Positions 4,889 to 32,599 of a stretch of 32,651 nucleotides of DNA are shown here, piece after piece. The stretch comes from a virus, in IMG/VR virus record IMGVR_UViG_3300033143_002607, positions 1-32,651 of that record. One strand, 5' to 3'. Every line of letters begins with the position of its first letter. Position 1 is the stretch's first letter. A model generated the notes under the pieces. The model was given only the letters and a program-made list of their open reading frames with translations, did no database searches and had not been told where the DNA came from. The translations under genes were made by a program, and so were the position numbers.

Positions 4889-6721
4889 ATGATGGCCATA
4901 ATCAGCCCAGGATTCATAGGAGTACCCGGAGCGTCAGGCGGTGCTGCTCTCGCGGCCCCTGTCAATGTTCTAAGCATCACAACCGCTACCCCGCCCGGCG
5001 CACCAAGCGAGGGCGACACGTACATCATCCCCGCAACGGGAGCCACGGGAGCTTGGGTCGGCCATGATAACGAGATAGCCGTCTGGTCGGGAGCGTCATG
5101 GGTATTTCGTACTCCTATTGAGGGCTGGCAAGCATACATCTCTGACGAGGACGAATACTACGGGTTTATTGATCCGTTGTGGGTGCTCAGTAGTCCCTTC
5201 GGCACCGGCAGCGAGGAACTGATAAACGGGTTAGCATGGGGCGACGTAACGATAACATGGGACGATGGTACAACTGTTTTCACAATAGCCCCCGTTGGCA
5301 CCACCTTCGACGTTTGGGTGAAGAGCGTCAAGTACAGCAAGACTACAGAAACTCTCACAGGCGACGGAACGGATTTCGCAATCGCTGAGGGAATTTGGTA
5401 TCTTTACTATGATGCAGCGGGCGTCTTAACCGCCTCTCAAACGCCTTGGTCCTTCGAGAACAACGCCCCTGTCGCCTTTTTCTATTGGGATGCAACGAAC
5501 AGCAAGGCTTTGTTGTCAGGACTCTTCGACGAACGACACGGCTCAAATTACCCGTGGTCTGTCCACATGAAAGAGCATCTCACTCTTGGTACGGCTTTCC
5601 AAGAAGGTCTTGACTTAACAGCGCTCCTCGACCAGACCGGCGCCTCGGATACGCATGCCCAAGTCGCGCTCTCCGACGGGACGTTGTGGGATGAGGATTT
5701 AGAAATCCCCATTGTCGACGGAGCCGGATCAGGGCGCTTCGAGCAGGAGCTTGACCCCATTGCTGAGCTACCGGTCCTGTATCGCAGCACTGCTGCGGGA
5801 CTCTGGCGCGAGAAAGTAGCAAACACATACCCTCTCTACGAAACAGCAGGACGTGTCAACTACAACAATATCGACGCCGGCGGCGCTGGCGTTTGGGGGC
5901 TGACGGAGGTTGCTAACGGTAAGTTCACAGATTCTATAATCGTTGGCAGCAACTCATTCAGTCAGCCCGTTGCCGTAATCCTTGGGCAAGCGACATATAA
6001 TACGCTTAATGATGCTCGTAACGCTGATCCTCTTGCCTCTTTCGACCTGACGGATCTCCCCTTCGAGGAGATAAGGTATCTTTATCGGATTATCATCCAA
6101 ACATCGGACGGCTACGGCAACGCCGTCAAAGCAAGGTTCCGCAGCCCGATAACCGATTATAGAAAGGTTGATCTCGGCTCCCCCGCTGCCGTAACATTAC
6201 CAACAGATCACCAAGCTTTGAGTAATCGTGATGCTGACGGCGCGCACCCTGCTACGGCTGTCGAGCTCGATACTACAAGTTTCGGTGGCAACCTTGCCGT
6301 TGCTGATGACGCGGCGCAGGACTTAGCAGATAAGTTCGACATCTTCACGCGTTCCCTCGCCTTCGCTTTCGACAACAGTGGTGCTGTTCTTGGCGTTGGT
6401 GAGAAGCACAACGCCGTCTTGGAAGTCCCCTTCAATTGTGAAATAGTGGCCGCGGTGCTCGTCGCAGGAGAGAGTGGCTCGATTCAGATCGATCTGTGGA
6501 AGACAACCTACGCGCTGTGGGAAGCGGGTGTCCACCCTGTTAACGGTGATTCCATCGTCGCCGCCGCACCACCAAGCATCGCCGCCGCAGAGAAATCTAT
6601 TGACACGACGCTCACTGCATGGACCAAGACCCTGACTAAGGGCGATCTGATCGTTCCGGTTATCGATTCCGTAACATCACTCAAGTGGGTGAAGCTGATT
6701 CTGCGGGTCAAGGCGGTCTAA
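4889..6721 (+). CDS. Phage fibre/structural protein with DUF2793-like N-terminus
   Basis: The predicted protein has 610 residues. Residues about 28-95 (from PSEGDTYIIPATGATGAW through the WSGASWVF and GWQAYISDED segments) match the pattern of DUF2793, found in phage fibre proteins. The middle is rich in beta-type segments. The last 120 residues (from about 490) contain CEIVAAVLVAGESGSIQIDLWK, then an AAAPPSIAAAEKSIDTTL-type segment and an ending in LILRVKAV. This resembles a beta-sandwich domain often found at the end of phage structural proteins. There are two possible starts, ATG at 4889 and 4892, behind an AGGAG box. It is likely a tail or head fibre, placed unusually before the terminase. 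Confidence 0.7.
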   Translation: MMAIISPGFIGVPGASGGAALAAPVNVLSITTATPPGAPSEGDTYIIPATGATGAWVGHDNEIAVWSGASWVFRTPIEGWQAYISDEDEYYGFIDPLWVLSSPFGTGSEELINGLAWGDVTITWDDGTTVFTIAPVGTTFDVWVKSVKYSKTTETLTGDGTDFAIAEGIWYLYYDAAGVLTASQTPWSFENNAPVAFFYWDATNSKALLSGLFDERHGSNYPWSVHMKEHLTLGTAFQEGLDLTALLDQTGASDTHAQVALSDGTLWDEDLEIPIVDGAGSGRFEQELDPIAELPVLYRSTAAGLWREKVANTYPLYETAGRVNYNNIDAGGAGVWGLTEVANGKFTDSIIVGSNSFSQPVAVILGQATYNTLNDARNADPLASFDLTDLPFEEIRYLYRIIIQTSDGYGNAVKARFRSPITDYRKVDLGSPAAVTLPTDHQALSNRDADGAHPATAVELDTTSFGGNLAVADDAAQDLADKFDIFTRSLAFAFDNSGAVLGVGEKHNAVLEVPFNCEIVAAVLVAGESGSIQIDLWKTTYALWEAGVHPVNGDSIVAAAPPSIAAAEKSIDTTLTAWTKTLTKGDLIVPVIDSVTSLKWVKLILRVKAV

Positions 6722-15836: not shown

Positions 15837-16385
15837 ATGAGACTCAAAGGTATCTTAGCAACTGCTTGGATGCCAGTACATGCTCAGATCGATCTCAAGC
15901 ACGCTACGATCACCCTCAAGGATGGTGGCGCGGGTTCCGCACAACAGAGTATTGAGGTTACTATTGGTGAGGGCAACCTTACCTATACCGAACGCAAGAA
16001 TATTGACTATACTCTGGACCGCGGTAATCTCGATGAGGTTCGTGAAGGAGATCAGGTTCCTGTTGATCTTTCTCTTGATGCTGTTTGGGAGTATATCAAA
16101 GGAACCGTTGGTACTGGTGGTACGCCGTCGATTGAGGATGTCCTCAAGCGGATTAATGCTGCTTCCGCTTGGGTGTCTACAGATGCGGATGCTTGTCGTC
16201 CGTTCGCTGTGGACGTGGAGATTGAGTATCTCCCCGTGCCTTCTACTTGTGGCGATAAGGAAGTCATTACGTTCTCGGACTTCCGCTACGAGGAGTTGGC
16301 GCATGACCTGCGGGCAGGTACTATCGCAGTGTCGGGACGTTGTAATGTGACGCAGGCTTCTGTTGCGAGGACTGCACAGCCATAA
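15837..16385 (+). CDS. Major tail tube protein
   Basis: The predicted protein has 182 residues and an AGGAGG site at a good distance. The beta-rich sequence includes HAQIDLKHATITLKDGG, EVTIGEGNLTYTERKNIDYTLDRGNLDEVREGDQVPVDLSLDAVWEYIKG and a late EVITFSDFRYEELAHDLRAGTIAVSGRCNV. The 'regular statement of binding to a strand, D-L-x-x-G-x-I-x-V-S-G-x-C-N' ending is common in tail tube proteins of siphoviruses. It sits immediately before the frameshifted chaperone gene and the tape measure, the standard order. It forms stacked hexameric rings of the flexible tail. Confidence 0.8.
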   Translation: MRLKGILATAWMPVHAQIDLKHATITLKDGGAGSAQQSIEVTIGEGNLTYTERKNIDYTLDRGNLDEVREGDQVPVDLSLDAVWEYIKGTVGTGGTPSIEDVLKRINAASAWVSTDADACRPFAVDVEIEYLPVPSTCGDKEVITFSDFRYEELAHDLRAGTIAVSGRCNVTQASVARTAQP

Positions 16386-16424: not shown

Positions 16425-16976
16425 GTGAAATTACATGGTAAAAAAGTAGAGGGTCCGAGAGTGGGAGTCGTAGTGATCCCACGACTGGACAAGGATTTAG
16501 TATTCAAAGCACAGGCTGTGTTGGATCATGATGATTTTGATAAGCTATATCCAGAACCTCAGCCACCAGAGATATTGCGGCCGGGTGGCGAAAAAAGTAA
16601 CGATGTCACCGATAAGTCCTATCTTGCTAAGGTCGAAAGGTATTCTGAGGCCAGGACGAACTGGATGATGCTTAAATCCCTTTCAGCAACCCCTGGGCTG
16701 GAGTGGGAAACCGTAGATATGAAGAACCCTAAAACATGGGGAAATTGGCGAAAAGAGCTTATAGCCGATGGGTTCTCAATAGTCGAAATAAACAGTATTC
16801 TTGAATGTATTGTAGATGCTTGCGGTTTAAGCGCAGGTAAAATTGAGGAGGCGACCAAGCGTTTTTTAGCTACTCAAGCGGAAGCGCGAAGAAAACAATC
16901 CTCCCCAAGTATCGGTCCGAAGTCTACGCAATCTGGCGAGCTTGCGAGCGTGTCGGAATCAGACCAGACGAAGTAA
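16425..16976 (+). CDS. Tail assembly chaperone, unshifted product (gpG-like)
   Basis: This is the zero-frame product of 183 residues, sharing its first 148 with the frameshifted form. It is mostly helical with an acidic/polar tail after the slippery codon. The helical segment EINSILECIVDACGLSAGKIEEATKRFL lies just before the slip. The zero-frame tail (Ser/Glu/Gln-rich) looks low in constraint, consistent with it being only the read-through of the short form. Synteny between tail tube and tape measure supports the role. Confidence 0.8.
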   Translation: MKLHGKKVEGPRVGVVVIPRLDKDLVFKAQAVLDHDDFDKLYPEPQPPEILRPGGEKSNDVTDKSYLAKVERYSEARTNWMMLKSLSATPGLEWETVDMKNPKTWGNWRKELIADGFSIVEINSILECIVDACGLSAGKIEEATKRFLATQAEARRKQSSPSIGPKSTQSGELASVSESDQTK

Positions 16977-17095
16977 AGGTGGTTTGGGATGATAACAGTC
17001 CGTGGATGCAAGCGAATATTATTGCATATAGTCAGATTCGTGACTATGAGGAATGTGACGACCGTATAGCACTGATGAAATGTGTCGGTCGTTAA
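16425..17095 (+). CDS. Tail assembly chaperone, programmed -1 frameshift product (gpGT-like)
   Basis: The GTG start at 16425 follows GAAGGAGA. Normal reading ends at 16976 (183 residues). At 16862-16868 there is a U UUU UUA slippery heptamer in the correct phase. Slipping back one base joins codon 148 to a downstream frame that stays open to the TAA at 17093-17095, giving a 223-residue fusion. The extension reads like a real protein (LPKYRSEVYAIWRACERVG, VWDDNSPWMQANIIAYSQIRDYEE), typical of the T part of lambda-like gpG/gpGT chaperones. AGGAGG lies 10 bases before the heptamer. The short and long forms would bind the tape measure during tail assembly. Ratio and site of shifting are inferred. 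Confidence 0.85.
16846..16868 (+). promoter_or_regulatory. Programmed -1 frameshift signal
   Basis: AGGAGG at 16846-16851 resembles a ribosome-binding sequence inside the gene. Ten bases later begins the slippery heptamer TTTTTTA at 16862-16868, read as CGT TTT TTA in the starting frame. An upstream SD-like element at this distance is known to stimulate -1 shifting at the E. coli dnaX site. I see no obvious strong stem-loop directly downstream. Confidence 0.8.
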
Positions 17096-17148: not shown

Positions 17149-17682
17149 ATGTCTATAAAATTAGCGGTGATCAGTGATCTACCGTCAGACATGTCTGGCA
17201 TGGTAAAGATACGTCGGCTCTTTCACAATAGGTTGAAGCGGCTGTGGAAGGGTTCTGTACATGCTTTTATATACGCGGCCTTTAGCAGAATCCCTGTGGA
17301 TACGGGAATGACTCGTGCCTCGTTTCTGCCTCTTGCGAGGGCTGCGAAAGCGGTAACGGTTGCTAAGGCGTTTCTTGTTACACATAGGGCGCCTCGATTG
17401 GGGTACGGCTATAGTCCTACTGAGATGAGGTCTGTACGGCATGGCATTAAGTTAGGTGAGAATGCTTATGAGCTATATCTTGGAACACCAGAAGCACCTG
17501 ACATGCGATTGGAGTTCAATATAGTAGTCTTTCAACATAAGCTGCATGAGTTAGGTTACCAGACTCCACCTTGGCGATCTATGGATTTTGGTAAAGCTGC
17601 TTTTCTTGATTATTGGAATATTAATTTTGATGCTGTTGTTCAACCCGAGGATATCTACGGGCGCATTTTAGGTAGGAGATAA
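17149..17682 (+). CDS. HK97 gp10-like tail/neck protein
   Basis: I chose the ATG at 17149 because AAAAGGAG precedes it at a normal distance; an upstream in-frame ATG would overlap the frameshift extension and the hairpin. The protein has 177 residues. The IPVDTGMTRASFLPLAR segment at about 48-64 is the PVDTG signature of HK97 gp10-like minor head-tail proteins. It ends near an LGYQTPPWRSMDFGKAAF segment, where family members have a short, basic, helical end. These proteins normally sit in the neck cluster; here the gene lies after the tail chaperone and before the tape measure, a shifted location. Confidence 0.7.
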   Translation: MSIKLAVISDLPSDMSGMVKIRRLFHNRLKRLWKGSVHAFIYAAFSRIPVDTGMTRASFLPLARAAKAVTVAKAFLVTHRAPRLGYGYSPTEMRSVRHGIKLGENAYELYLGTPEAPDMRLEFNIVVFQHKLHELGYQTPPWRSMDFGKAAFLDYWNINFDAVVQPEDIYGRILGRR

Positions 17683-17684
17683 TC

Positions 17685-20600
17685 ATGGCCGATGTAATGA
17701 TACAGTCTGGAGGCGGCCGAGAAGCAGTAAGTGCCTTCGAGGCTATTTTGAAGGCGATTGCTGCGGCCGGTGTTCAGGTTGATAAAATCAATAAGCAGTT
17801 TGTTACTTTAAATCTTGCTTCCGAGACAGTTGACTCTACACTTAAAGGTGTTAGTAAGTCTGGCGATATACTAACAGCAACACTTAAGGCTCTTGGCACA
17901 GCACAAGAAGATTTTAAACTGTCTGTTAGTAGCACGAACGCTGCGACAGATAAACAAATAGTAAATATGGACAAAGCGGCACGAGCAGCTAAGCTTTTCA
18001 GGTCTGAGATACAGAAGGGCTTCACACGAAAAGATGTAGCGGGTAAAGGCGCTACATTTATGGAGCAGTTTAATCTTAAACAAGCTGAACAAGCAATTTT
18101 TAAGCTCATAAAAACACAGCAGCTTTCTGCTGTTCGTGCGAGACAAATTCTTGCTGATATTAAGCAAGGATATGTTAGGAACTATGGGGAAGGTACAGAG
18201 GCTGCTGTAAAAGCAATATTGCGTCTTAAGCAAGCACAAGATGCTGTTGGAATTTCAGCACGAAAACAAGCATTAAAAGCAGCGGCAGCGCAACAGAAGG
18301 CAGCGGCAGCGGCAGATAAAGCGAATAGAAAAATCCAAACAGGGTTAAAATCTTCCACTAAAACTGTTAAAACAGCAACCACCGCAACTCGCGAGTTTAC
18401 ACTATCATGGAGGAGCCTCGCACGTATCACCGAAATCGCTTTGTTTAGGCGGCTTGTCTTCGCAATGACGGCACAGCTTCGTGAAGCAACAAACACAGCA
18501 CGTGAGTTCTCGAAAGCTATTGGAGAGTTGAGGACAATTTCTCAGAATGCTCAGCTTCAAACTGAGGAATGGGAACAGGGATTAATTAAACTTTCCAATG
18601 CTTTCGGTCTCGATATCCTTGACATCACAGAAGCTGCATACCAAACGCTATCTAATCAGGTTGCAGAGGGTGCTCAAACTTTTGATTTTATGACCGAAGC
18701 ACTTAAATTTGGCATCGTAACACAGACGTCTGCAACAGATTCCGTAAATCTGTTAACTGCTGCTATTAACGCTTATGGATTAAGCTCTAAAGATGCTGGA
18801 GCAGTAGCAGCTTCGTTCTTTAAAACGATTGAGCTTGGTCGTGTGCGTGGTGATGAGTTAGCAAACAGCTTCGGCCGTATCGGGATTCTTGGTAAACAAG
18901 TTGGTGTTCAGTTAGAAGAACTACAAGCCGCAGTTACCTCACTAACAATTCGTGGGCTCAAATTTAGTGAGGTATCTACACAGATTCGTGGTGTTCTCCT
19001 CAAGCTCATTAAACCTACTGTGGAGATGAAGAAGCTGTTTAAGGATATAGGCGTCGAGTCTGGTGAAGCTGCTATTAAGGCATTTGGTTTTATAGGCTTC
19101 TTAAAAATCTTAGCAGCTAGAACAGAGGGCAGTACTACAGAACTAGGGAAGTTTATAAGTCGTATACGCGGGCTTATCGGCGCCGTCGGTCTAATGAATG
19201 ACGGTTATAGCACGATGGTAGATAATTACAAAGAAATCAAACAAGCACAAGATGATTATGCTAAAGCCGGAGAGCTTGTCTTTGAAACACTTGGTAAGAA
19301 GGTTGACAAGATATTCTCAGAACTTAAAAATACTATTACACAAACCTATGGTAAACCTATTCTTGAGTTTTTTGTTTTCTTGAATGATAATCTTATTAAA
19401 ACAACAGAACTACTTCACGCATTTGCTAATGTTGTAACTGGTGTTGCGATCATTGGTATCACTAGATATATAGGTAAGATAGGGTTGCTAAGTAAAGCAA
19501 TGTCTACGCTTAATCCCTATATTATTGTAACGGCTATTGCTTATGCCTCGATGAAAACGGCTATAGATTCAATGGTTGACTCTATAGACGAAGAAATACA
19601 AGCACAACTTGAAGCTACTAAGCGGATGGAAGAAGCATCAGAAGCAGCCATAGTTGCAGCAGGTAAGAGGTTTGATTTTCTTCAAGAAAGTATGCAACAC
19701 TTCGCTTCCGAAGCCGCTGCTTCAATAGCAAAAATAACTAAACAATTACGGAAAGAAGTTACCGAGCAGGAAGTAGATGTTAAGAAAGCAACGAAAGTAT
19801 TTGAAGATGCTTATAAGGGCGCCATTAAAAGTATAACACTAGAAATTAAAAAGATTGGTAAAGAGCAAAAAGAGCTTCAACGAACTTTTGATCAAATGTC
19901 TGATTTCCTTAATGACTTTAGGTCAGATATTAGCCGAACTATTTTTGAGTATAATTTCGCTCAACTACAAAATGTGGATGTTCAGTTTGATATAATATTG
20001 AAGCGTATCAAACTTCTACAGTCAAGGGCCACTCAGGCGGCAAAAGATAATAATGTAGAGGTTTTAAAGGATTCTTTTAATCGCATAAAGGAACTTCAAC
20101 TTCGACTCGCCAATATAGACAATAAGGCCCTTGTGAAGCAGAAGCAGGCTCAGCAAAAGCTACGTGATATAAAGTCGAAAGCAGAAGAAAAACTAAGTGA
20201 AAATTCAGAGAAATTAGCAGAAGCCAGCCATAAGAAGAGTAAGTCTCGAATCAACAGCCTTAGAAAACAACGTGCAAAAATCAGTATTGAAGCAACAGAG
20301 GAACAAAGAAAACAACAAGAAGAACTCAGCATATTAGCTAGTAACCGCTTAGGGGAATTTAGTTCTCAGCTTGAGACAAATTTACAGAAACTTATGTCAC
20401 AAGCGGAAAGCACTATTCTAGCAGCACAGACGCGAATACAATCAGAACTCTTAAAAATTGAAGAAAAGAAGCGTAAAGCAGAACTACGGCATCTTTTCCT
20501 TGTCGCTCGCTTCAAAGATATTAGAGGTCAAAAACTAGACGAAACATTCTTTGCACAGACCTCCATTGAAATTAATAAGTCTTTTGAAGAAAGAGTATTA

Positions 20601-21716
20601 AGGGTCAAGGAGCTTGTCACTGAGCTTAAGGCTGCTGAACAGATAGAAGCTGCTACATTACTTAACAAACAGCTTCAAGAAGAATCAGAATTAGTAAAGA
20701 CACGATTGCAAGCTGTTCGTATTCGTGAAGAGCAAAAAGCTAATAATGATAATTTAGTTGAGATACAAAAAACTATTGATTTATTAAATCAACAAGCAAC
20801 TTTACAGCAGGGAAATCTTGAAAAATATAAAAAAGCTATCAGTATCTTAAGTATTTCACAGGGTAGATTTAAAGATGTAAATAGGGCACTGTTGAATTTT
20901 GCTGCTAATGCTCCAAGAATATACACAATGCCGCAAGAAGCTATTCAAAAATGGAAGAATCTTACTGCTGTTATGTCAAAATTAACGGCAGCATCAGATA
21001 AATTTATTGCAACAGGTAAAGGTACTGATGAATATGTAAAACTTATAAGGGAATCATCAAAACAACTTGAAACAATACCACATGTTTATACTCTTGCTGG
21101 AGATGCTTCGCAAGATGTGATCAACAAACAAAAAAACCTAAATAACTTAATCCTGAGGCTGTTCCAAGGTGAATTAAAATTGGGTCGAGCATTACCAGAA
21201 GTTATAAAAGTGTTTAAAACTTTAGATGGGGCATTAAAAGCTCAAGAACAATCACAAGATAAAAGGATGGAGACTACGCGCAAGGCAAATGAAGTAACTA
21301 TTTTAACTGTTAATCAATTAACCAATAAGTATTCAGAGCTTACCAAGGCGCTTCAACGAGCCGAAGAAGCACAAAAGGCTCTTGTTGAAGCTCAGAAACG
21401 AATTGTACCTGAGCCAACACAACCAACAGAACCCTTTGCAAGAGGTACAAGAACATCAAGCACAGACACAATACCAGCGATGCTGTCTCCGGGTGAGTTT
21501 GTTATGAACGCCAAAGCGTCGCGCCGCTTCTATAGTCAGCTCGTAGGCATGAATAGGGCACAGGGCTTCGCGCGTGGTGGACCTGTTGGTGGCCCTACTT
21601 TTAGTGGGGATTTCAACATTAACTATCGAAGTAGTGGGAATGAGAGTGTTGATGTTGTTCGATTAGGTAAACTCCTTAGGCGCGGAATTCAGCGTGGAAC
21701 TGTGAGGTTAACATGA
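17685..21716 (+). CDS. Tape measure protein
   Basis: The predicted protein has 1343 residues, the longest but one in the window. It spans the tail lumen and sets tail length; at about 0.15 nm per residue it would predict a tail near 200 nm. About residues 260-560 contain the TP901-type core (LDILDITEAAYQTLSNQVAEG; GLSSKDAGAVAASFFKTIELGRVRGDELANSFGRIG; EELQAAVTSLTIRGLKFSEV). Hydrophobic segments at about 575-625 could cross a membrane during DNA entry. Residues 630-1150 are long coiled coils rich in Lys, Glu and Gln. The end has the common FARG...TDTIPAMLSPGEFVMNA...GFARGGPVG signature. Its stop overlaps the next start (ATGA). Confidence 0.93.
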   Translation: MADVMIQSGGGREAVSAFEAILKAIAAAGVQVDKINKQFVTLNLASETVDSTLKGVSKSGDILTATLKALGTAQEDFKLSVSSTNAATDKQIVNMDKAARAAKLFRSEIQKGFTRKDVAGKGATFMEQFNLKQAEQAIFKLIKTQQLSAVRARQILADIKQGYVRNYGEGTEAAVKAILRLKQAQDAVGISARKQALKAAAAQQKAAAAADKANRKIQTGLKSSTKTVKTATTATREFTLSWRSLARITEIALFRRLVFAMTAQLREATNTAREFSKAIGELRTISQNAQLQTEEWEQGLIKLSNAFGLDILDITEAAYQTLSNQVAEGAQTFDFMTEALKFGIVTQTSATDSVNLLTAAINAYGLSSKDAGAVAASFFKTIELGRVRGDELANSFGRIGILGKQVGVQLEELQAAVTSLTIRGLKFSEVSTQIRGVLLKLIKPTVEMKKLFKDIGVESGEAAIKAFGFIGFLKILAARTEGSTTELGKFISRIRGLIGAVGLMNDGYSTMVDNYKEIKQAQDDYAKAGELVFETLGKKVDKIFSELKNTITQTYGKPILEFFVFLNDNLIKTTELLHAFANVVTGVAIIGITRYIGKIGLLSKAMSTLNPYIIVTAIAYASMKTAIDSMVDSIDEEIQAQLEATKRMEEASEAAIVAAGKRFDFLQESMQHFASEAAASIAKITKQLRKEVTEQEVDVKKATKVFEDAYKGAIKSITLEIKKIGKEQKELQRTFDQMSDFLNDFRSDISRTIFEYNFAQLQNVDVQFDIILKRIKLLQSRATQAAKDNNVEVLKDSFNRIKELQLRLANIDNKALVKQKQAQQKLRDIKSKAEEKLSENSEKLAEASHKKSKSRINSLRKQRAKISIEATEEQRKQQEELSILASNRLGEFSSQLETNLQKLMSQAESTILAAQTRIQSELLKIEEKKRKAELRHLFLVARFKDIRGQKLDETFFAQTSIEINKSFEERVLRVKELVTELKAAEQIEAATLLNKQLQEESELVKTRLQAVRIREEQKANNDNLVEIQKTIDLLNQQATLQQGNLEKYKKAISILSISQGRFKDVNRALLNFAANAPRIYTMPQEAIQKWKNLTAVMSKLTAASDKFIATGKGTDEYVKLIRESSKQLETIPHVYTLAGDASQDVINKQKNLNNLILRLFQGELKLGRALPEVIKVFKTLDGALKAQEQSQDKRMETTRKANEVTILTVNQLTNKYSELTKALQRAEEAQKALVEAQKRIVPEPTQPTEPFARGTRTSSTDTIPAMLSPGEFVMNAKASRRFYSQLVGMNRAQGFARGGPVGGPTFSGDFNINYRSSGNESVDVVRLGKLLRRGIQRGTVRLT

Positions 21717-27286: not shown

Positions 27287-27967
27287 ATGAAGAAGTTGTT
27301 AATGTTAGTCTTGTTGTCGGGATGTATTCTCGCACCTTACCGTCAGGAAGGGCTTGCTATTGCACGCAAGAAGACACAAGACGCTTGTAACAATTTGCGT
27401 GATGCTGTTGTAATACTCAACACACTTGGTACTGAGATTACTAAAGCAGATTTAGAAAATCGTGAACCAAATATCCTCCCTCTTATAAGAGGGATTGCTA
27501 CTCCGCTTCTCGCCGCTAATGACAATCTTCAAGAAGTAGGTAAAACTATCGTTGTTCTACAGGAAGATATAGGTGAAACAGAAACAGATATTTCAACTTG
27601 GTCGAATGCACAAATTGCTTTATGGCGGATTAAGTACCAAGCCATAGCAAAACTATATAAGAGCGCAATGTCAATAATATCAAGTAAGCTGCCCTTTGCG
27701 TCAGGGGCGCTCAGTGCTAAGAGACCCGCACCTTGGTCAGCAACAGATATTTCAGCGCTTGTAATGTCGGTGCTAACAGCTATGGGCGGTGGTGGATTAG
27801 GTGCAGCAAAGATTCTCAACCTCAAGAAGCGGGCAACAGAAGGTAGTATGTTAGCTGATGCACTTAAGGAGAAATGTAATGGTGACGGTGAATTTGCCGG
27901 TATCATTGCAAGCGCACCAACGATAGCACGTCAGCATCAAATTACAAAAATGAAAGGAACTACCTAA
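27287..27967 (+). CDS. Phage lipoprotein
   Basis: I chose the ATG at 27287, preceded by GAAAGG; an upstream in-frame GTG at 27278 is less likely because it would add residues before the signal peptide. The protein has 226 residues. MKKLLMLVLLSGC is a classic lipobox (Leu-Ser-Gly-Cys), with Cys13 as the predicted lipid-modified residue. The body is helical, and a second hydrophobic Gly-rich stretch lies at about 155-177 (ISALVMSVLTAMGGGGLGAAKIL), followed by basic residues. Possible roles include an outer-membrane or inner-membrane lysis accessory (spanin-like) or superinfection exclusion. None can be fixed from the sequence. It shares a TAATG with the next gene. Confidence 0.7.
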   Translation: MKKLLMLVLLSGCILAPYRQEGLAIARKKTQDACNNLRDAVVILNTLGTEITKADLENREPNILPLIRGIATPLLAANDNLQEVGKTIVVLQEDIGETETDISTWSNAQIALWRIKYQAIAKLYKSAMSIISSKLPFASGALSAKRPAPWSATDISALVMSVLTAMGGGGLGAAKILNLKKRATEGSMLADALKEKCNGDGEFAGIIASAPTIARQHQITKMKGTT

Positions 27968-28761
27968 TGCGATTCCGTCAAATGGATGATGGGACACTAT
28001 TAGCCCCGAAACGTGGCGCCCCGCCGCCTGCGCCAGAAGGGTATATGCGAAGTAAGGGTGATCCCTTTACATTCTATCCAGTTCTCCTAAGCTGCCCGTA
28101 TCGTGAGGAAAAAGTTAAGCAGCGTGGATGTTGTGATGATATAGGGTATACGTTTTGCAACAAGTTGAAGATGTCTGTAACACGAGCATCTTGTGTTAAG
28201 TGTGCCGAGAAAATCTTACCTGAGAATATGAGTTGGCCCATGATTTATGAGACGCTATATAAGGATGAGGCCACTCAGTACGCATCGGGGAAGCATAACA
28301 AGAGCCCTAGCTTACGATATTTAGACCTTTATCGTGATTGGCTCGACGGACATATTATTGACTTAGGGTGCGGGCGTGGTGAAGCAGTGATGCTTCTCCG
28401 CGAAGAAGGTTTTGATATAGATGGTGTGGATTTCGTGGACCTAGACAACGGGATGCGAGTCGCCGATATCTCGAAACCTATGGACCTGTCTGATTACGAC
28501 ACGGCGATATGTATGGATGTTATCGAACATATGCTTGATGAAGAAGCTATGCAACAGGTTCTCGACAACATGGCGCTTGTACCTCGTCAGGTTATTAGCA
28601 CATATGTTGGTCCATCGATAATCGGCGGTATGCCAATTAATTTGCATCCCTTAATCAAGACTATTGAGCAGTGGAAATGGATTATGAAGCTAAACTTCCG
28701 CATCGAGAAACATATCCAAATCGATCAGAAAAAGCACATTTTCCTTTTGGAGACCAAGTGA
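27967..28761 (+). CDS. SAM-dependent methyltransferase with an N-terminal Cys-rich region
   Basis: The predicted protein has 264 residues. Residues 130-140 (IIDLGCGRGEA) are motif I of class I SAM-dependent methyltransferases. DVIEHM at 184-189 and the strand ...VISTYVGP follow. Before it, six Cys residues (43, 55, 56, 64, 76, 79) may form a metal site; PKRGAPPPAPEGY precedes that. The substrate is unknown. A small molecule, sugar or lipid is more consistent with the neighbours (two genes with glycosyltransferase-like features) than DNA. The stop overlaps the next gene's GTG start (GTGA). Confidence 0.8.
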   Translation: MRFRQMDDGTLLAPKRGAPPPAPEGYMRSKGDPFTFYPVLLSCPYREEKVKQRGCCDDIGYTFCNKLKMSVTRASCVKCAEKILPENMSWPMIYETLYKDEATQYASGKHNKSPSLRYLDLYRDWLDGHIIDLGCGRGEAVMLLREEGFDIDGVDFVDLDNGMRVADISKPMDLSDYDTAICMDVIEHMLDEEAMQQVLDNMALVPRQVISTYVGPSIIGGMPINLHPLIKTIEQWKWIMKLNFRIEKHIQIDQKKHIFLLETK

Positions 28762-29444
28762 GCTACACAGCTATCACATTAACGGGCGATAGGCCGCGGG
28801 CTTTTGCTATATGTCGCGAGTGGGTGGCTCGGCAATCCGTGCCACCTACTCAGTGGGTTGTTGTAGACGATGGCCGCATTCCACTCAAGAATATTCCTAG
28901 TTGCCACTATATTCGCCGTCAACCGCGAAATAATGATCCTACTCATACACTGGCGCTTAATCTTCGTCTTGCTATTCAAGTAGTGACGATGCCTAGAGTT
29001 ATTATTTTTGAGGATGATGATTGGTATCATCGTCAGTATGCTGAGGTTATGCTGAGGTTGCTGAAAAACGTATCATTAGCAGGACTCGGGAGAATGATAT
29101 ATTATCACATGGTAACTAGGGAATTTCATCATTTTCCTAAGAGACCACATAGCAGTCTCGCATCAACAGCTTTTGACTCTAAACTTATACCGCGGATTCT
29201 TAAGCTAACACGTAATGATCTAAGTCCTTCTGTTGATATTAAGCTATGGGGTGAGGATGTTATGAAAGCTATTATGTCATTTGATACAATTTACCATCTT
29301 GGACTAAAGGGAATGCCCGGCCGTAAAGGGCTTACACTTGGGCATACAAAATTCTCGATGTATGAGGGAGATGATAAAGATTTGGTCTTTCTGATTAATT
29401 GCATCGGTGAGGATATAAAAAAATATAGGGAGATTTTAGCATGA
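28758..29444 (+). CDS. GT-A type glycosyltransferase
   Basis: I chose the GTG at 28758 because TTGGAG lies 5 bases upstream and GTGA overlaps the previous stop; an earlier in-frame ATG would overlap the methyltransferase by about 90 bases. The protein has 228 residues. VSYTAITLTGDRPRAFAIC opens a GT-A nucleotide-binding fold, QWVVVDDG at 32-39 is the following strand, and IIFEDDDWY at 82-90 holds the DxD metal motif. LGRMIYYH and WGEDVMKAI continue the fold. It is likely a family-2-like inverting transferase, acting on a cell-surface, virion or nucleotide-linked acceptor. The acceptor is unknown. Confidence 0.78.
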   Translation: MSYTAITLTGDRPRAFAICREWVARQSVPPTQWVVVDDGRIPLKNIPSCHYIRRQPRNNDPTHTLALNLRLAIQVVTMPRVIIFEDDDWYHRQYAEVMLRLLKNVSLAGLGRMIYYHMVTREFHHFPKRPHSSLASTAFDSKLIPRILKLTRNDLSPSVDIKLWGEDVMKAIMSFDTIYHLGLKGMPGRKGLTLGHTKFSMYEGDDKDLVFLINCIGEDIKKYREILA

Positions 29445-31335: not shown

Positions 31336-31718
31336 CACAGTCTCCTCCTCTCGGGACAGAAATCATCAAGAAAAATGCCAGTTACATCAGGACGTAATTC
31401 TAAAATCTCCTTTCCTAGTTCCTTTGCAATCTTAATTTCCTGAGCAATACCCTTACTCTTTTCCCAACCGAAAAGTTTTATAATGAGCAATGTATCACAA
31501 CGAGCTAAAAGTTCTCGATCTAATGCTTCCCATGTCTCAAAATCCCCACTTATAGCTAATTTAGATGCCATTGGGTGCCCAAGAATAATGGGGGAGATTG
31601 TGAAAATTCCTTGACTAAAAAGCTTTGCTGCAATGTCTACGACGCTATTGTAGCGCATCTCTTGGACGCCCGGTTTCTTGCTTGAGTACGGAGATGCAAG
31701 ATAATATAATTTTGCCAT
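31335..31718 (-). CDS. DUF1937-like protein (nucleoside deoxyribosyltransferase-like fold)
   Basis: The predicted protein has 127 residues and is coupled to both neighbours (TAATG upstream, TGATG downstream). It opens KLYYLASPYSS, then has IAAKLFSQGIFTISPIILGHP and a LLARCDTLLIIKLFGWEKSKGIAQEIKIAKELGK segment. This is the pattern of DUF1937 and related proteins with a nucleoside 2-deoxyribosyltransferase-like fold: the YLASPY opening, a D-x-L-x-I and a GW-x-x-S-x-G-x-x-x-E element. The Glu of that element would be the nucleophile in true deoxyribosyltransferases. It may salvage or modify nucleotides next to the DNA methylase. Confidence 0.75.
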   Translation of the reverse strand: MAKLYYLASPYSSKKPGVQEMRYNSVVDIAAKLFSQGIFTISPIILGHPMASKLAISGDFETWEALDRELLARCDTLLIIKLFGWEKSKGIAQEIKIAKELGKEILELRPDVTGIFLDDFCPERRRL

Positions 31719-32599
31719 TATTTACATTCCTTAATCCACAGTACCTCGGTTGTTTTCTTCCGTTCCGAGAGACCTTTTAATTTTTCTTTATTATTGCCTT
31801 TCGTAAACGCAGCAGGCGTCATAGATACAAAAACTTTCCATGAGTATCTAGCATCCCAATCTTGACCCTCATAGAGAGGATTTATGTAACCAGAAACCGC
31901 TGCAAAGCCCCTGAGATTAAAAATAGTCGCTAAGAGTTCACGATGGTCCTCGATACTCATCTCATTCTTATATGTCCCTCTATGTACATCAACATATGGG
32001 GGATCAATATAGAATACTGTATCAGGTGCATCATAGTCTCTAAGACACTGCCGCCAGTCTTGATTTTCTATTTGTACGGACAAGAGTCTTTCATGGAGCA
32101 TCGGAAACATAGGGAGCTTCTTTTGGATTTTACCGGCGAGGGGACTCCGTCTAACAGCACGGCCAAAATTCCGACCAAGACTACCAAAGGAATAGACAGT
32201 AATGTAATACCACATAGCAGCGCGTTCCATATCTTCCGTAGCATCAGTCCACCCTTCCTTACAGTAAGCAAACTCTTCCCGAGAATGAACGGTGAGTTCC
32301 AGCCTCTTAATAAGGGCCACGAACTTATCAGCATCACGGAGACAACGATAGAATGCTACAACACCCCCATACCTATCATTATATACTTCCAACGGACTCT
32401 TATGCCGTGATAATAACACAGCAGCAGAGCCGCCAAAAGGCTCAACATAGACCCCTCGGTACGGGAGGCGGGGTAGAATCGCTTCAACAGATCGACTCTT
32501 ACCGCCTGGATACCCGAAGGGTGCGCGTAGGATTTCATTCTTCTCCGGGTCGGCTGTCTGTCTCTCTAACTCTTCGAATTGTTCTAATAAGTCGGTCAT
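31718..32599 (-). CDS. dam: D12-class DNA adenine-N6 methyltransferase (Dam-like)
   Basis: The predicted protein has 293 residues. Motifs are FGYPGGK at 28-34 (the N-terminal PGGK), VEPFGGSAAV at 52-61 (SAM-binding motif I) and the catalytic DPPY at 199-202. The size and order are typical of the Dam/D12 family, which transfers a methyl group to adenine N6 in a short target, often GATC. No restriction partner is visible, so it may protect phage DNA from host restriction or regulate replication/packaging. The target cannot be read from sequence alone. GGAGAAG precedes its ATG, which overlaps the upstream stop (TAATG). Confidence 0.9.
   Translation of the reverse strand: MTDLLEQFEELERQTADPEKNEILRAPFGYPGGKSRSVEAILPRLPYRGVYVEPFGGSAAVLLSRHKSPLEVYNDRYGGVVAFYRCLRDADKFVALIKRLELTVHSREEFAYCKEGWTDATEDMERAAMWYYITVYSFGSLGRNFGRAVRRSPLAGKIQKKLPMFPMLHERLLSVQIENQDWRQCLRDYDAPDTVFYIDPPYVDVHRGTYKNEMSIEDHRELLATIFNLRGFAAVSGYINPLYEGQDWDARYSWKVFVSMTPAAFTKGNNKEKLKGLSERKKTTEVLWIKECK

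Follow-up and report, generated by a model that had tools for sequence, protein, structure and literature searches.

This locus raises the question of whether two overlapping frames lying ahead of a tape measure gene are joined on the ribosome, and, if so, which elements of the sequence make up the signal. From the comparison of relatives described below, it is very probable that the arrangement is a programmed −1 ribosomal frameshift of the type known for G/GT of phage lambda. The window (the whole stretch of DNA analyzed, its 32,651 bases making up a complete virus record of IMG/VR) contains, in this order, the gene for a presumed major tail protein (15837–16385, + strand), assigned by its position and by synteny in relatives and having no Pfam or PHROGs match, the G frame, the T frame, one small gene, and the gene for the tape measure protein (17685–21716, + strand; PF10145 with E 1.6e-23, and PHROG tape-measure families). 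The small gene between T and the tape measure gene (17150–17682), for which a comparable gap is found in relatives such as L013, encodes a PVDTGMTRAS stretch reminiscent of tail-completion or HK97 gp10-like proteins and has no Pfam or PHROGs match. Another relative carries, in tandem, two genes akin to that of the presumed major tail protein (L020:5001–5477 and 5864–6292).

The gpG-like tail assembly chaperone frame (0 frame; 16425–16976, + strand), as given in the list of open reading frames, begins with GTG at 16425 and comprises 183 codons before a TAA at 16974–16976. The slippery heptamer T TTT TTA (16862–16868, + strand) is in 0-frame phase, the codons across it reading CGT TTT TTA GCT, which corresponds to the correct X_XXY_YYZ register. 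It is preceded by a Shine-Dalgarno-like AGGAGG (16846–16851, + strand), coding for part of Glu-Glu-Ala, with a spacer of 10 nt (CGACCAAGCG). The −1 frame is already open ahead of the heptamer and meets no stop until the TAA that ends at 17095, and the gpT-like domain in this frame (16868–17095, + strand) provides 75 aa after the shift, giving a predicted fusion of 148 + 75 = 223 aa. The first-pass annotation, which had described a heptamer in the correct phase, a 223-residue G–T fusion, and an uninterrupted downstream frame, proved exact on re-reading of the sequence, and its placement of AGGAGG exactly 10 nt before the heptamer is confirmed by position. Among the 69 distinct loci compared below, the non-shifted tail of G has preferred lengths of 7, 10–11, 29, 31, or 36 residues, and the SGEPV motif recurring in it is the other-frame shadow of the WRACER core of the T domain.

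TTTTTTA occurs seven times in the window against 6.8 expected; with the heptamer alone at chance frequency, the case must therefore rest on its phase and conservation. The exact arrangement AGGAGG-N10-TTTTTTA was found in none of 100 shuffles of the DNA, but AGGAGG needs only GAG GAG for the encoded Glu-Glu, the probability of which is about 0.20 from the codon usage of the phage. On the same basis, CGT TTT TTA has a probability of about 0.03 for the encoded Arg-Phe-Leu, and when the 0-frame tail is shuffled synonymously, the −1 frame stays open in just 2.6% of cases. The main evidence against a chance arrangement is that provided by the related sequences.

With the −1 frame (76 residues) as the query, a search of viral contigs yielded 10 relatives, and 9 further ones were obtained with the upstream gene, that is, the presumed major tail protein; each had a G-like frame followed by a T-like frame in the −1 relation. 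An alignment-based scan then gave 193 relatives of T, 80 of which were kept, and the comparison set consists of 100 loci including the window's own, 69 of them distinct. Identity to the window is mostly 30–60%. The relatives of T were recruited by the T sequence alone, with G coming along, and the G alignment comprises the window frame and 66 relatives; a single-protein search of IMG/VR with G gave no match. The family is absent from 50,697 phage records in DNA and translated searches with G, T, the G of two relatives, and the presumed major tail protein as queries, and neither G nor T (for Pfam, the T of the window) has a significant Pfam or PHROGs match. The sole relative from a bacterial genome collection (L100, DYKV01000002.1) comes from a 63 kb contig in a metagenome-assembled genome of Anaerolinea sp., which hints either at a host in the Chloroflexota or at a viral contig that was binned with it.

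Throughout this set, the two frames are each homologous to those of the window and stand in the −1 relation (100 of 100 loci), and constraint on the sequence begins at the slip codons themselves, in support of the initial proposal that a programmed −1 shift at the heptamer joins the gpG-like and gpT-like domains. In the 69 distinct loci, the junction reads T TTT TTA in 42, T TTT CTA in 14, T TTT ATA in 6, and T TTC TTG in 2, the remainder having TTT followed by ATG, CTG, TTG, CTT, or TTT, once each. The codon before the slip Phe codon ends with T in all 69 loci, across nine different codons, and 67 loci have TTT and 2 have TTC as the slip Phe codon; the upstream Phe codons of the same genes, by contrast, are divided between 139 TTT and 151 TTC. 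Thus, U_UUY is common to all 69, and the site is retained even in loci at 65–67% GC. Measured by codon, the synonymous concentration has z values of about −1 to 3 at codons −14 to −2 and of about 33 at codons −1 and 0; because the rows are related and not independent, these z values overstate the strength, yet no lineage breaks the rule. As codons −1 and 0 precede the dual-coded stretch, their constraint is not explicable by the −1 protein. The values of 12–23 after the shift are expected from dual coding and were set aside as evidence. UUC occupies the P site in L047 (2990–3005) and L067 (2452–2467; both positions approximate) alone; the junction there reads GCA AAT TTC TTG, and a shift of tRNA-Phe pairing from UUC to UUU is still possible.

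It is very improbable that T is a gene in its own right, started separately, or that the junction reflects a sequencing error or a broken remnant. No start codon lies upstream of the conserved WRACER core in the T frame of the window, the first possible one coming after the core, and the same lack of a start before the core applies to most relatives. A complete, separately started T gene is found in none of the 100 loci. Relatives with a broken downstream frame, named at the outset as a sign against the proposal, were likewise not found among the 69 distinct loci, in which the frame is intact, conserved, and always −1. Only a little less improbable is transcriptional slippage, in which the polymerase would add or drop a U on the T run to make the fusion. 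Such slippage by a bacterial polymerase is known to need runs longer than 3–5 T. A run of six T is present at the site, but in 25 of the 69 relatives the T runs are just 3–5 long, and the phase and the U_UUY codon are nevertheless retained; a third-base T specific to one phase is, moreover, what codon re-pairing predicts.

A further alternative concerns the signal: AGGAGG might act as in dnaX, pairing with the anti-Shine-Dalgarno sequence of translating ribosomes as a required stimulator of −1 shifting. The hexamer is perfect, its spacing is dnaX-like, and the predicted anti-Shine-Dalgarno affinity of the family peaks 9–10 nt before the heptamer (mean of about −4 versus about −1 kcal/mol elsewhere). 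This peak, however, is explained by the encoded amino acids, the observed mean being −4.36 kcal/mol versus −4.09 in synonymous shuffles (median p 0.6, with 2 of the 69 loci below 0.1), and 21% of such shuffles match or beat the affinity of the window's own AGGAGG. Codons −5 and −4 have a synonymous z of 0.0, and the small excess at codon −6 (z 3.3) comes mostly from GAA and AAG, not GAG. GGAGG is present in just 6 of the 69 loci, through six separate changes on the tree. Nor does the window have a downstream stem-loop, 70-nt windows starting 0–10 nt past the heptamer giving folding z values of +1.3 to +1.9, worse than shuffles, and no compensated pair was found downstream in twelve relatives, in an examination confined to stem-loops. 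About a quarter of the individual relatives have a downstream folding z below −1.5, and some may have hairpins of their own. AGGAGG thus results for the most part from the coding of Glu-Glu-Ala and is in this phage accessory at most; it may raise shifting in this one phage, but as a stimulator of the family it is not supported by the comparison. A required signal of the dnaX kind therefore appears unlikely, and the part of the first-pass annotation that cast AGGAGG in that role is not borne out, the element being sporadic on the tree, free of synonymous constraint, at shuffle level in affinity, and unaccompanied by a hairpin. The alignment of relatives, from which conservation of both elements was to be read, thus upheld the slip codons and not the hexamer. 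The missing stimulator is counted against the explanation by programmed −1 frameshifting, for which none is established.

Within that explanation, it remains to be considered which tRNAs slip. In the window, both P-site UUU and A-site UUA can re-pair in the −1 frame, as in a canonical tandem X_XXY_YYZ site. Tandem slippage is not family-wide: the A-site codon is CUA, AUA, AUG, CUG, or CUU in 23 of the 69 loci, and two more have UUC UUG. On U_UUU_CUA and U_UUU_AUA a tandem slip is barred, since it would place the A-site tRNA opposite UCU or UAU. The shared core of the family signal is, on the evidence of these codons, probably P-site slippage of tRNA-Phe on U_UUY, in line with a published account in which most −1 shifting minimally requires that one tRNA slip on a Z_ZZN tetranucleotide (PMC5009743). 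At least five changes between tandem-capable and single-slip sites are counted on a quick tree, a rough count with many branches weak; among them is that of a TTA locus (L046) placed within a CTA/ATA group.

We tentatively consider, as a possibility with somewhat less than even prospects, that the real signal of the family is a single-tRNA P-site slip on U_UUY ahead of an NUA codon that is decoded slowly, without a Shine-Dalgarno element or hairpin, and that the site has changed several times among lineages between the tandem-capable form U_UUU_UUA and the single-slip forms U_UUU_CUA/AUA, the fusion protein remaining the same. If this were true, the speed of A-site decoding, through tRNA supply, would regulate the G:GT ratio. 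The A-site codon is NUA (UUA, CUA, or AUA) in 62 of the 69 loci. Retention of NUA for slowing the ribosome is not claimed, as it is confounded by the −1 frame, which also favors A for Ser/Thr (AGC, ACN). In this phage, UUA accounts for 20% of Leu codons and AUA for 27% of Ile codons, neither being rare, and no phage-encoded tRNAs were found.

For the programmed −1 frameshift as a whole, we infer the following course, including the shift on the ribosome, its efficiency, and the functions of the proteins. The majority of ribosomes would read gpG (183 aa) through to its stop, and a minority would slip by −1 with tRNA-Phe on UUU, with U before and UUA next, and continue in the −1 frame to yield the 223-aa gpG–gpT fusion. 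The core of the signal in the family would be U_UUY in the P site, and in this phage an A-site UUA would allow tandem slippage as well. If the proteins act as in lambda, gpG would coat the tape measure protein, and a few molecules of the fusion would bring in the major tail protein as the tail is assembled.

The structural model of G (mean pLDDT 84) gave as its best matches YqbN (3klu, Z 6.2), which we take to be a tail assembly chaperone of the XkdN-like family, and the HK97 tail assembly chaperone (2ob9, Z 4.1) in a comparison by VIA-align with 932 aligned solved structures; these Z values are middling, the next among the matches listed are at 2.0–2.5, and the identity of G with the two proteins is 12–13%. 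That both top folds are those of tail assembly chaperones agrees with the modeled protein's gene position ahead of the tape measure gene. Foldseek with G returned nothing below E 0.4 in the PDB, the best viral model being that of an uncharacterised 152-aa protein of Bacillus phage Staley (U5Q195), and the Phage_TAC_5 model of Pfam matched weakly in only 2 of 67 members. The T model consists of two helices, with no fold match in the PDB. The names gpG and gpT are thus based on gene position, the anatomy of the locus, and a fold match of middling quality (Z 6.2).

The locus is worth comparing with known frameshifting systems. As in lambda G/GT, the site lies upstream of the tape measure gene, the predicted −1 shift falls near the 3′ end of G and would add a short C-terminal T extension, and G would be abundant and GT minor; the class features recognizable in the sequence are the −1 frames, the location, and the conserved slip sequence. 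Unlike lambda, where the heptamer is G_GGA_AAG, the phage has an extra small gene between T and the tape measure gene, and no sequence similarity was detected between the two. The G:GT ratio of lambda is about 30:1 (PMC5009743), and a low shift efficiency here would suit a lambda-like ratio. The tail chaperones 17.5/17.5* of SPP1 have been assigned a putative −1 shift at UUUUUUC (PMC6316719), so that an all-U heptamer in a tail chaperone has a precedent and the rarity originally ascribed to the combination was overstated. SPP1 shares with this phage the all-U heptamer, P-site UUU, and a tail chaperone shortly before the tape measure gene, whereas its A-site codon is UUC, not UUA, its T extension is larger (297 versus 223 aa in total), and no homology was detected. 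HIV-1 gag-pol has the same heptamer, U_UUU_UUA, and gives a mixed product with 70–80% Leu and 20–30% Phe at the shift (PMC5009743), so that both tandem and P-site-first routes are possible. It differs in having a downstream structure, none being predicted here, and a third of the phage relatives carry A-site codons that do not re-pair.

In E. coli dnaX (A_AAA_AAG with a Shine-Dalgarno-like element and a stem-loop; PMC6787027), the Shine-Dalgarno-like element and its upstream spacing are similar, but the heptamer is different, and here there is no stem-loop and the element is not conserved in kin. The shift in dnaX reaches 70–80% (PMC6787027), an efficiency far exceeding the need of a lambda-like G:GT ratio. 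IS1222 and other single-tRNA Z_ZZN sites (A_AAG; PMC5009743) shift by −1 through one re-pairing P-site tRNA, as the CUA and AUA relatives require, although in IS1222 a Lys tRNA acts on A_AAG in a transposase, in contrast to a Phe tRNA on U_UUY in a tail chaperone.

With the all-U heptamer already known, what is new is the uncultivated family and the apparent natural drift between tandem and single-slip sites. The analysis adds to the tail-chaperone frameshift class a large family of uncultivated phages missed by Pfam, PHROGs, and the searched records of cultured phages. Its 69 distinct natural sites show that selection keeps U_UUY in phase and not the Shine-Dalgarno element, a hairpin, or tandem re-pairing, and with them it can be tested directly whether slippage in the P site is by itself enough for −1 shifting in tail chaperones. 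Elsewhere in the window, 31718–32599 (− strand) reads by eye like a Dam-type DNA adenine methylase (FGYPGGKS, DPPY), and 27967–28761 and 28671–29444, overlapping by about 90 bases, appear by eye to be SAM methyltransferase-like and glycosyltransferase-like, respectively.
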